Positions 9,901 to 24,900 of a stretch of 64,000 bases of DNA are shown one piece after another. Made by a program: the position numbers and the translations under genes. The notes below the pieces were generated by a model. The model worked only from the letters and a program-made list of their open reading frames with translations, had not been told where the DNA came from and ran no database searches. Source of the DNA: Antedon bifida (lineage: Eukaryota > Echinodermata > Crinoidea > Comatulida > Antedonidae); contig OY727093.1 of NCBI GenBank assembly GCA_963402885.1, positions 22,815,409-22,879,408 of the forward strand, in the 5' to 3' direction. Numbering within the stretch: position 1 is the first letter of the stretch; every line of letters begins with the position of its first letter.

Positions 9901-12900
9901 AAGAGTATATTGATTTTTATTGATGATAGTATTTGTTTTATCAATCTGTGCTTTATCATACAGTAATTTGTTTGACCTTGTTAACGTAAAAACTGTGCCA
10001 CAGTAATTACTATACATTGTATTGAGCGGAAACATAATTATCATAAATGTAGGATGGTCAGTAGCGACCAGCAGATTGAATGGCTTCATATGCACTGAAC
10101 CCAGCTGTTGCGATATCTAAATGATGGTAGTGGTGCAGTGTGTTGGACGTTGGACTATTTATTGTCAGGAGTTCAAATCCATTGCTTGTGTCCTTAGGCA
10201 AGACACTTTGTTTACGTTTGCCTCTCCCCACCTAGGTGTACAAATGGGTACTGTCAAAACACAACTGCACTAAGGCTGCATTATAGTATGTTTCCATTCA
10301 TATTTGATCCAAACATAACCATGGTAATAATGTGAAGCGTTTAGAGGCTATGTGCATGAAGCGCTAAAGAATGACATCATTAGAAGCAAGTTTCAGCATA
10401 TTGATCACTATGAAAGATACCTGCCCCTGAGCGTGATTTATTATTATTATTTATTTTATATTGATTCCTTTAAATAACTGATTGGTTTCCAAAACTCATG
10501 TTGTGAGACCCACAATAAAAAAAAATGTTATGTTAGGGATACTTGAAGTATTAATACAGTAATCCTACAGTATAGTTCGTATAAAAAAAAATTGTGAATC
10601 CCTTTTGTTTCTATCACAATGAATCCAAATGTACAAGGTCACATTGTGAAGATAACCACAAAGATTGGTTCATTTTCATTGGTTCGATTTTATCCTCATT
10701 TAATATTAATTAACTTTAGTTCGTGGGTTTACAACATAATAAATGTATTGATTTGTTTTACTAATGTGTCAATTGAATTCAATAATTGAAGGCTAGACAC
10801 CAAACTCTTTATTGTGCTGTAGTAAAATATAACGATATAGGTTCAAGTACGACATTAACATGTAGAACGGTCAGCAGCATATTAGCCAATCAGATCTGTA
10901 ATTAAACAATGACATTGAATACTTACCGATCGTGTCTAGCGCTCTATAAAAGAATGTTGCAAAAGCCTGTTCTTCAGTCAGACCACGATAAGCAATTGAT
11001 CGACAACTACAAATAGCACAGCAAAGTTATTTGACATCATGTGTAGAGCAACTTCAGTTAGAATGCAGAAAGAACATTGTATATCAGTTGTAGAAGGCAG
11101 ATTAGAAGATCACATTCCTTTGTGCAAGAAGCGCACAATGGTGGTTCCACCTTTGGTCATTTCACCTGCAGATTCTTTGAAGAATTCTAAAAAGAAAGAA
11201 AACTTTAAAGAGATGGAGAAATTCAACAGTCCAGCTATGTGTACTCCAGTCAACAGGACTTTACCAATTTCTAAAATGATGAATGGATCAACAAACATGT
11301 TTCTGTTTGTGGAGACAGCAACTTCAACATTTGAAGCATTTGACGAAGCAGACTTTTACGTAGATATTGATGGAGATGAACAACCAGAAAAAACTCCAGA
11401 ACAAGAAGCTGCAGAAATTGCTGTTATGGAAGCTTTGAGCAGAATTGGAGATGATATCGACATAAATTCTTATTTACAAAGAGACACTTTATTCAGAAGT
11501 CTTCTGAGTACAATTACAAAGAGAATAAAACAAGTAGATGAAGGAACACCAGTATAAATAGAACTTTGTCTGGTGCTAATATTTAATGCAAACTAAGCAA
11601 CTAAAAAATTGATGCTGCAAATCAGAATTTAAAAGAATTCTATTATAGTGTTTCTTGCAATATGGCAGGACTTATGACAGCTGACGATACAATCTAATGT
11701 TATGTAATGCAATATTTTTTTTGATATAGTAATTAAAAATGTAATTTTACCAACTCAAATTTATACTTTCCTTAATTTATAGGTTTTCTTAATAACAAAG
11801 ATAACAATTTATTTCAATTAAATATTATACAGTAAAATTGATTGATAAGAAATATTTACTGCTGTATTCAATTTATTAATAATATTGAAAATCTTGTAAA
11901 CAATAATAGAAATATTGAATGATGAATAAAATTGTGCTGAAAATAAAAGATAGTTCTCACTTTCTTATTTTGTATGTATGTACAGTATGGAGTTTACTGT
12001 ATGAGAAGCAGTGTCTTATATAGATCTATGTTTTTATCCAGAATATCAAATCAGACAATTTGATAAAGACATGGCTATCATTTTGAAATAGTATAGTAGT
12101 AGTAGGAGAGAATATTTTTCTGAAAGAAATGTTGTGAGCATCTTGTATCAGAGGTATTGTTATGATGATATGAAACATCCTACGAGGGATAAGTAACTCT
12201 TCCCTGATCCTCCAAAGTATATGATTAAACATACATATTTTGCATCATATTATGTACTCTTTATCATTGCTATATGCTTCTTGTTTCCTTTAGTTGCATT
12301 CTCTCTTTGGCACAAACTTCTTTTGAAAAACTTTCACATCCACTTTTGACTCATTTAAGATGAATTTAAAAACTCATTTATTTCAGGATCTTTGATCATC
12401 TTTTTTGGAATTGGCACTATATAAATGTTCGATTGTCTTTTTATTTTGCTCTGCATGGTAAATGCATTTTTAGAAGAAGAAATCTTTTAATTTGATATTT
12501 TTGTAATGTTCAATATCAATAATTAAATAAAAAGCAACATTTCCGTGGTCATTGATAATAATTTCTTTAATAATTTTAATTCAATGAACTTTAGTTAATG
12601 GTTTCTAACTCACAAAGTAAATGTATTGATTCCTTCAATAGTTTGTTAAATACTAGACTACAATCTATGTTGTTTTGCTATGTATGTAATGTGAAATTGT
12701 GTTAACATATTATGGTCAGTGATGCAGTATCCAATTGGGTAACTGTAATTGGACATAACACTAACATAAAAGAACCAATGATACATTGCCAACATGGTAT
12801 TGAATGTTTTTGCTTGTATTCATTCTGCTTTTATTCAATATTTGTCTTTGCAGTATATATAAAATAAAACTGAATTGCGAGAGATTTACATATAAAATTG

Positions 12901-21900: not shown

Positions 21901-24900
21901 AACATGTTTCTGTTTGTGGAGACAGCAACTTCAAAATTTGAAGCATTTGACGAAGCAGACTTTTACGTAGATATTGACGGAGATGAACAACCAGAAAAAA
22001 CTCCAGAACAAGAAGCTGCAGAAATTGCTGTAATGGAAGCATTGAGTAGAATTGGAGATGATATCGACAGAAATTGTCATTTACAGGGAGGAAGTTTATT
22101 TGGAAGTCTTCTGAGTACAATTACAAAGGGAATAAAACAAGCAGATGAAGGAACACCAGTGTAAATAAAACTTTTACTGACTAGATGCTGTAGTATGTTA
22201 CTTGCCAATACATTTGAAAAAGAGCAGCTTAAAACAACTTTAATGGTGCTGCAATTTAGCTGCCAACTGATGCTGCAAATACAGTACTCCAGAATTCAAG
22301 ACAAAAAGAAAAAGAACTTTAAAATAGTTGTAAATGGTGCAATAATTAATCCAACACTGAAATAATGGAAGCTGAAAAATGACGTTTATGCAATATTTTA
22401 TATTAAAAATGTAAATTTATCAACTCAACTTAAAATGCACAGTGTGGTGTTACTACAAATTATTGTAGATTTTTTGTTTCTAATGAAGAGTATCAATAAA
22501 ATTGATCTAAAAATATATTATAAATGTGTTATTGTTTTATTTGAATTTACAGTGTGTGATGAATATGTATTTGTGTGTAATGTTCATAGTATTGAAGCTG
22601 GATCAGCTATAAAATATCAACAAGAAAAGGCCAAATGTTTTAGAAGTATTATAGGTACTGATAATGTAAATATACTAATTAAAACAAGTAACATTTTTTT
22701 ACTGACCGCATAGAAAAAAAAATTAGAAATGAAGAACAAATATAAAAAAACATCATGCAGAATAATTGAGAAAGGGAAAAAAAATGGTTATCATCTGATT
22801 GTATTGAGAAACGAACTAACTGAATTTTGCTAGATGGAAAGATAAAAAGAAGTAGGGAAAGAGGTATTGTATAAACCAAACATGACCTGGATAACTAGAA
22901 TAAAAGATTATATGTGTGCAATCAGTACATGTAAGAGAGAATTAGCAAGTAAAATGGCCTAGCGGTTAATGTAGAGGTGACGTTTACCATACCTAAAGAG
23001 CCAGGAACATCGGCATGGGTTTTTCGAGGCCGCATCGCTCCTAGTTCTGGTGGTGGAACAAGTCTTCTTGGATAAGGACTATAAACCATAGGTCCACACA
23101 TTTATCACCTGTGTGCACTTTGAAGAACCCAGTTCAACATTCCAGCTGTGTATAGGTAACCCTGGTGAACTGGTTCACAAAATAGCCCTGTCTCAGGGGA
23201 TAAGATAAGATCTATAAAGCGCACATATCCACAAAGTGCTCATCTGATAGGACGGTGATTTATTTACTATTGGTAATCCTTTGCCACATGTCCTATGCTT
23301 TTTTTTCAACATTAATTTTGAGAAAGTACTTAAATGAACATGATTTCAATTTTGTTTTTGTTGATACGAGTACATAATGAAGTTAACAGCATGATAAAAT
23401 ATAACTAAATGTATTGATTTTAATGTAAATTGTATTCAACTAGACTTTGTCAACATTGAAGGCTAGGCAGCAAACTACATTGTCTTCATAATTGATGTTA
23501 GGTTAAGTACGACATTAACATAGGACAGTCAGTTATTCATTAGCCAATAGGAAAGCTGCAATCAAGTATGTTAGAAGATCGGTCAGTGATAGCCAATAGG
23601 ATTTCTTCAATTAAATAATGGAGTGTTAACCCGTACCTAGCTATTATTCTGTATATTGCAGCCATGTCACTGATGTTTAGAGTCACTCATTCAATATAAG
23701 GATCGGGACGCTGTGTACTATGTACTATACTGCATTCAAGACATTGGAATAATAGTTTAGGAATTATTTGCTTACAATGTTCTGAGTGTTGTTCCTGAAT
23801 GTTTAAGATCTCAAAAGGTTCATCTAAGCTCTCGTATAAGATGGGGTTTGCTGATAATTCACTTTTTCTAAGTTGATATCAGTATTTCCTTTGTGGAAAC
23901 TGTTGATTCAAATTTGAGGAATATGGAATATAGTAAATGAGCAACCAGAACATCTCCAAAATAAGATATGATATGATATGATATCACATAACATCTGTAA
24001 TTATTGAGCATTGAGTAGAATTGGAGATGATATTGACAGAAATTGTTATTTAATTTTAAAAGGAAGATTTATTCAAAAGTCTTTTGAGTACAAATTACAA
24101 AGGGACGATATCAACTGAAATTGTCATTTGAAAAGAGAATTTTTAGTCAAAGCAGATGATGGTCAACACCTGTCATTGGTGCTACTGTCAATATAAAAAG
24201 ACAATAATGTAAAGGAATAATACAAATGAAAAACAGACACTACGGTAACTGATAATTTTAGATTTCAAATGAGAGTTCAAGAACAAAAAATGTCTGTCAA
24301 TCTACAATTGCCGTTATTAACAAGAATGTCTTTGTATTTACAGGTCCTCCAAGTCGTCTTGTAAAGGATGAATATCCCAATGAATGCGTTCAAGTGGAAC
24401 ATAACGTATCACATCCACCCCATCAATCTCCTAATGGAATGGGAATGCCAAGTTTAAGTCAAATTCCGGGTATGAGTCCTGGAAGATTGGGTAACTTTCA
24501 GAGAATGATGGCACCACCTTTTAATCACCAACCTAGGGGTAAGTCTGAAACACAAGTTCAAATATAATACAACTTTCACTTGGATATAATAATGTTTTCT
24601 ACCATTTGTTATACATATTCAAAGTAATTGTGCCATAAATCAATTTTTATTACTTAATTATTTACCAAAACTAGCAGCCCTGGAATTTTAGAATGCCTTT
24701 TGTATAGGAAAGAATTGTTGCATTTGAGTTTAGAGAGTTAACTGTCCAAAATGACAGATATCGCACAATTAATGTGTAAATAGGTTTTATATCGTAATAG
24801 GAATGAAGTTTGTAATTTGGGGTTAAAATATTCTTGGCTACCAATCATCATGTCCTAGGTTCTCATTTATGTTGTCCGATGTCCCAATTGTTCTCATAAT

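Follow-up and report, generated by a model that had tools for sequence, protein, structure and literature searches.

A tandem array of intronless genes for candidate BH3-only-like proteins in a SMAD4 intron of the crinoid Antedon bifida

Can a family of cell-death genes be recognised when the likeness of its members to known proteins comes down to a single short helix? The question is raised by four short open reading frames (ORFs) that lie in tandem within an intron of the SMAD4 gene of the crinoid Antedon bifida, in a stretch of 64,000 nucleotides of contig OY727093.1 (hereafter, the window). A first-pass annotation of this DNA had described them as an expanded family of BH3-motif proteins. 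BH3-only proteins trigger mitochondrial cell death. We consider it fairly likely, with a probability of roughly 0.6, that the array represents a lineage-specific, recently expanded family of intronless genes for BH3-only-like pro-death proteins. That it is a real gene family, whatever its function, is probable on sequence grounds. Pro-death activity, groove binding, expression and helix formation are properties that we infer for the copies.

The array and its BH3-like stretch

All four ORFs lie on the + strand, which is also the strand of SMAD4, between the MH1 exons and the remainder of that gene (linker and MH2 exons). Each is a single exon, and an ORF scan of the window finds no internal stop in any of them, just as the first-pass annotation had reported. 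Copy 4 (21646..22164; 172 residues) serves as the reference for protein identities. Copy 1 (11039..11557; 172 residues) is the most diverged, with 88% identity to it; copy 2 (14725..15225; 166 residues) is 97% identical and carries an in-frame 18-base deletion (six residues) relative to the others; and copy 3 (18124..18642; 172 residues) is 96% identical. When the copy-4 protein was compared with the whole genome (315.6 Mb in 27 contigs), six candidates were scored, and the four matches at E ≤ 0.001 were all copies of the array. Likewise, a query made of the last 55 residues of copy 1 recovered at E ≤ 10 four candidates in the genome, which were the array's own four copies.

The resemblance to BH3 resides in a stretch of 16 residues, placed by a BH3 weight matrix at 11414..11461, 15082..15129, 18499..18546 and 22021..22068 (+ strand) in copies 1 to 4, respectively. 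The 14-residue motif that had been singled out as common to all ORFs is indeed identical in the four copies. Across the window, translated in six frames into 2,043 segments, a strict pattern, h1-x3-L-x2-h3-G-D-[DE]-h4, occurs four times, every time in an array ORF; among 100,000 shuffles of copy 4 it turns up in 16. A looser pattern has five occurrences in the window, four of them in array ORFs, and turns up in 421 of 100,000 shuffles. The matrix was derived from 12 human BH3s, which were left out one at a time for self-scores. Each of the four copies scores 16.4, compared with 7.5–26.6 for the human BH3s, and when 1,048 six-frame segments from the window are ranked they take the first four places, ahead of a segment that scores 9.6. 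Of 20,000 shuffled versions of copy 4, 3 attain 16.4; the chance estimated by fitting a Gumbel distribution to the shuffled scores is higher, at 8e-4 per protein. Seven of the 16 residues agree with BIM, and the count is the same for BAK and for BAX; the strongest hydrophobic moment of copy 4 falls on residues 128–145. Gly137 and Asp138, which the earlier reading required not to be freely substituted, are kept in all four copies and in a decayed fifth one, the array itself being the sole source of homologues for this comparison.

Sequence searches against the PDB (E ≤ 10) point in the same direction. The full copy 4 gave four matches, three of them BAX, and the alignment of the four copies gave 11, namely ten BAX entries and one patatin. 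With the C-terminal part as a query, all 13 matches for copy 4 (best E 0.10) and all 16 for copy 1 (best E 0.059) were BAX, and all of them fell on the BAX BH3, over 21–30 residues and with E-values of 0.06–1.4. The reversed C-terminus of copy 4, used as a control, retrieved two matches, both reductases, and no BAX. What seems to matter here is the agreement of the matches in place and partner, not the single E-values.

Each copy is also preceded by what looks like a core promoter. The sequence TATAAAAG, which contains a TATA box, is followed in all four copies by TCAGTC, which we take to be an initiator, at a distance, counted between the T of TATA and the A of the initiator-like site, of 31, 33, 31 and 31 bases (copy 1, 10945..10979; copy 2, 14628..14664; copy 3, 18029..18063; copy 4, 21551..21585; all + strand). 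The first ATG past the initiator-like site, 63–64 bases on, is the start of the ORF in every copy. On the + strand of the window TATAAAAG occurs four times, each time upstream of one array ORF; the four occurrences on the − strand have no TCAGTC at the matching distance. The TATA/initiator pair thus stands at all four ORFs and nowhere else in the window. The description of the family as expanded, intronless and promoter-bearing is supported. A p53-type half-site noticed by eye near the copy-4 initiator was dropped, as the other copies do not keep it.

The repeat unit is about 3.4–3.5 kb long. The unit with copy 2 (14419..17819, +) and that with copy 3 (17820..21341, +) are 93.5% identical over 3.5 kb; the copy-3 unit also shares 863 bases with copy 4 at 97.0% identity and 720 bases with copy 1 at 89.3%. 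Since the promoters were duplicated together with the ORFs, separate retroposition of each copy was ruled out. Downstream of copy 4, a decayed fifth copy (24007..24114, +) retains a 12-residue piece of the protein in a broken frame. A block at 23401..23655 (+), 90% identical to 16366–16623 and 19878–20135, is probably the relic promoter of this fifth copy. All three blocks are about 90% or more alike and show short similarity to the copy-1 promoter, and they are probably relic promoters of lost copies. Antisense frames of 120–132 residues over three of the ORFs were taken as mechanical, and Rfam at its gathering thresholds gave no match in the window.

Evidence for and against a BH3-only-like family

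A number of observations speak against a BH3-only-like family. An alignment of the four proteins, searched against 5.8 billion proteins at E ≤ 10, yielded no homologue among 5,035 candidates, and a single copy searched against the same collection at E ≤ 1 yielded none among 23. SMAD4 proteins from both Antedon mediterranea and Anneissia japonica are present in this collection, and the array ORFs are not listed there either; the family may be confined to its lineage or may merely be unannotated in relatives. The same alignment fitted 32 stretches of viral contigs as a pattern, none of which was confirmed. At E ≤ 10, the four proteins match neither the Pfam Bcl-2 domain (PF00452) nor the Pfam BH3 model (PF08945), and the profile search that the first-pass annotation had suggested as a check came out negative also for the named BH3-only families (BIM, BMF, BAD). 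The sole Pfam entry listed for them at this threshold is Rpp20 in copy 1 (E 0.072, below its cut-off). The assertion that the pattern is matched at every key position holds for the pattern as it was then given, but not for the fuller BH3 consensus, in which a small residue usually follows h1: the copies have Met130 there. None of the PDB E-values is significant on its own, and the PDB rows are not independent because many of them are one BAX sequence in different constructs. AlphaFold2, supplied with the four sequences only, returned a model of low confidence (mean predicted local distance difference test score, pLDDT, 36.6; residues 1–118 below 50), and by the charge-hydropathy rule copy 4 lies just on the folded side (0.456 vs 0.432). 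The best-scored part of the model is a helix at residues 120–145 (blocks of ten at pLDDT of about 48–58), and a second helix spans 150–167; the model agrees weakly with a disordered protein carrying one helix. On the other hand, the absence of BH1 and BH2, expected of a BH3-only protein, was borne out, PF00452 being absent from the four proteins. The earlier statement that there is no membrane anchor was also supported: in copy 4 the most hydrophobic 19-mer averages 0.8, under the usual threshold of 1.6.

Comparison of the copies with one another bears on whether these are genes at all, and it cuts both ways. None of the six copy pairs has a frameshifting gap in the coding sequence. Copy 1, compared with each other copy, is 93–94% identical over the coding sequence with zero frameshifting gaps, compared with 75–77% and seven such gaps over the upstream 400 bases and 49–53% and six gaps over the downstream 400 bases. 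The upstream contrast appears to be the best evidence for coding constraint. On the negative side, the low downstream identity may simply reflect where the duplicated block stops, and the contrast between coding sequence and flank is confined to copy 1. Among the younger copies it is missing or runs the other way: between copies 2 and 3 identity is 99.7% over the downstream 400 bases and 97.4% over the coding sequence, and between copies 3 and 4 it is 98.8% over the upstream 400 bases and 97.9% over the coding sequence. Replaced residues are only slightly fewer than expected under neutrality (six pairs, P 0.058–0.46, no pair departing clearly), and dN/dS (the ratio of nonsynonymous to synonymous divergence) ranges over 0.26–0.62 across pairs, with whole-gene tests not significant. 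The selection test is, moreover, probably blurred by gene conversion, because codons 52–96 hold no variable codon, silent ones included. Near-neutral replacement counts, a chance of 0.26–0.79 per pair that the changes would include no stop, flanks as alike as the coding sequence in places among copies 2–4, a decayed fifth copy and the lack of an annotated homologue would all fit a nonfunctional array, that is, young duplicates of non-coding or dying DNA whose frames are still open through youth. We nevertheless regard this as distinctly improbable, given the copy-1 coding sequence, free of frameshifts beside a much more diverged upstream region, and the intact spacing of TATA, initiator and ATG in this same copy.

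It is also conceivable, if on balance unlikely, that the array consists of genuine lineage-specific genes with some other function, whose amphipathic, BH3-like helix with its GDD turn is a coincidence and which work through another short motif or through the conserved centre at codons 52–96. This centre, not the BH3-like stretch, is the most invariant part of the ORF: over 135 bases (window 11192–11326 in copy 1) there are zero differences between copies, silent sites included, apart from the 18 bases deleted in copy 2, and yet copy 1 differs by several percent elsewhere in the ORF. As silent sites are spared too, we read this as a gene conversion tract rather than as protein constraint; constraint at the DNA or RNA level is the alternative. 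A different pattern is seen at the BH3-like stretch. There are 36 variable codons among the copies; the three within codons 126–141 are all silent, whereas just past it, in codons 142–153, ten codons vary freely and eight of the ten change the residue (BH3 against all other variable codons, Fisher P 0.031, for a block chosen after the fact). A chance helix would further accord with the missing homologues and Pfam family, and a few matches this good are expected by chance per proteome, which also tells against a BH3-only-like family. In addition, 34 further human peptides, found by search, bind Bcl-2 receptors according to PMC4072508; BH3-like sequence alone is therefore not enough for a BH3-only protein. 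Chance is harder to square with the purely silent changes in the BH3-like stretch next to a freely changing one, and with PDB matches of the C-terminus that all land on the BAX BH3 and a reversed control with none there. A further explanation concerns descent only and is compatible with a BH3-only-like family: the copies may carry a BH3 fragment split from a multi-motif Bcl-2 gene of the BAK/BAX type and now standing alone. The BAX matches over 21–30 residues would suit such an origin, as would the local similarity between copy 4 and a Bcl-2-family frame of the same genome (locus L009, see below), which falls on the BH3 of that frame (E 0.030, a single comparison). Nevertheless, no alignment at E ≤ 100 was obtained with the genome's own BAK-like exon and Pfam detects no remnant of BH1 or BH2, so we hold this origin to be improbable.

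Bcl-2-family partners and known BH3-only proteins

For possible receptors, a search of the genome with the PF00452 profile gave seven matches above the cut-off (L009–L015). L009 is an open frame of 247 residues in which BH3 (ETLRRIGDEVG), BH1 and BH2 can be recognised by eye. L013, above the cut-off, and L017, below it and 339 bases upstream of L013, appear to be separate exons of a single BAK-like gene with MVGRRLAQIGDQID; L017 is the exon with the BAK-like BH3. Stretches scoring above 7 with the BH3 matrix are present in six of the ten loci L009–L018 (L009, 14.1; L013 and L017, 22.8 for the same stretch; L016, 14.5; L012, 11.2; L015, 10.7) and absent from the other four, the matrix being neither complete nor strict. 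Bcl-2-family genes are present in the genome, so the animal has potential targets for a BH3-only protein. The proposed mechanism would then run as follows. Each copy would be transcribed from its own TATA/initiator promoter into a protein that is mostly without a confident fold and has one amphipathic helix at about residues 120–145. This helix would insert into the groove of the animal's own prosurvival Bcl-2-family proteins, and occupancy of the groove would free BAK/BAX-like effectors and so lead to mitochondrial cell death, as with BH3-only proteins.

The predicted proteins resemble vertebrate BH3-only proteins such as BIM, BMF and PUMA in being small, in lacking a Bcl-2 domain and in having a single amphipathic, BH3-like helix within the last third of the chain; they differ in matching no Pfam family, in being encoded by intronless tandem genes and in having no membrane-anchor-like stretch. 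BAX is the closest solved sequence, over 21–30 residues. BAX and BAK carry BH1, BH2 and a membrane anchor, all of which the crinoid proteins lack. Within the phylum, BH3-only candidates have been published for Strongylocentrotus (373 residues), Acanthaster (350 residues) and Stichopus (118 residues), with BH3 on a single exon as here (PMC8998228). By description, to which this comparison is confined, their lengths differ from those of the crinoid proteins, and tandem arrays or nesting in SMAD4 are not mentioned in the available text of that study. The same source lists cnidarian BH3-only genes that are likewise intronless; they belong to a distant lineage, and the likeness considered here is one of motif and gene structure. 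It was accordingly too strong to claim that the family has no described counterpart, seeing that the sea urchin, starfish and sea cucumber candidates and the intronless cnidarian genes were already on record. The echinoderm candidates are unverified, as are possible ones in Lophotrochozoa; further candidates are given there for cephalochordates and hemichordates. Literature searches on intronless tandem BH3-only genes, tandem duplication and BH3-only proteins in crinoids showed, among the papers listed, no report of this family, judged by titles and, for crinoids, by the term BH3-only.

BH3-only proteins outside vertebrates are hard to find by sequence, as only a short motif is kept, and biochemical proof is needed (PMC7022251). 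Two studies, earlier than PMC8998228, report no BH3-only protein in oyster or bivalves (PMC5550854, PMC3634015), and the repertoire of corals is described as still open (PMC4715348). Crinoids are placed as sister to all remaining extant echinoderms (PMC11336682). If the BH3-only-like reading is true, the crinoid array would supply testable candidates and show how BH3-only genes arise and are lost inside a single array.

The PF00452 search also drew attention to a dispersed element (L019–L028; for example, C1:29965051 on the + strand and C1:29971814 on the − strand), with at least 94 weak matches in at least 40 places on at least 11 contigs. Both strands are matched in at least 34 of these places. 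One ORF of the element scores 24.7 bits against the Pfam Bcl-2 model, below the curated threshold of 31.4 (E 3.5e-5), and a PDB search with this Bcl-2-like ORF (E ≤ 10) gave a single match, the poxvirus Bcl-2-like protein FPV039 (E 0.07). Ten pieces of the element from five places on three contigs are 98.9–100% identical over aligned lengths of 2.7–3.2 kb. Taken together, these features suggest an inverted-repeat element, probably active in recent times, that carries a Bcl-2-like gene. One may speculate that the BH3-only-like family expanded as a host counter-measure, neutralising the Bcl-2 mimic of a mobile element with an anti-death gene. The basis for this is the co-occurrence in one genome of recent tandem copies and a Bcl-2-like element, and we consider the idea highly improbable.

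The SMAD4 host gene and other features of the window

SMAD4 was delineated on the + strand from Pfam matches to MH1 (6975–7307, E 1.3e-13; 7777–8055, E 1.7e-21) and to the end of MH2 (38540–38809, E 1.3e-17). The first part of MH1 is encoded by an exon whose coding part spans 6975..7244 (exon end by eye), the second part by the exon 7777..7950 (Pfam and comparison with relatives), and the end of MH2 by the last coding exon, 38603..38809 (Pfam and exon comparison). The intron that contains the array spans about 15 kb (9101..24343, splice sites by eye). A query assembled from the SMAD4 exons of the window matched Antedon mediterranea best (89% identity) and Anneissia japonica second (82%); exon by exon, identity to A. 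mediterranea is 88–100%, the 90% of the first exon including intron read-through. A mini-exon of SMAD4 (DLSGLTL...) is tandemly duplicated, with copies at 8990–9019 (30 bases) and 9059–9100 (42 bases), both of which are flanked by a TTTTAG and a GTAAG splice site of their own. These are possibly alternative exons, and the array-bearing intron would start at 9020 if the second one is unused.

The location of the array had been taken to link Smad signalling and cell death at one locus. This is unsupported: the copies have their own promoter-like sequence, and there is no evidence of shared regulation. Most likely, the intron is just a landing place for the array, and nesting in SMAD4 has little added significance unless co-regulation is demonstrated.

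Elsewhere in the window, an open frame of 262 residues at 56178–56963 (+) contains an adenosine-deaminase (editase) domain (E 9.6e-32) and is probably one exon of a larger gene. At 61150–63999, the − strand has long frames in which coding units of 105 and 15 bases are repeated in tandem (APKPAKKSVKKMAHSIQGDGNIVKEDK-like). A 73-base unit is repeated eight times in tandem at 47639–48234, the copies being 98% alike; adjoining them is an exon on the − strand (48327–48620) that encodes a legume-like lectin domain (E 6.6e-36), LMAN1-like by eye.

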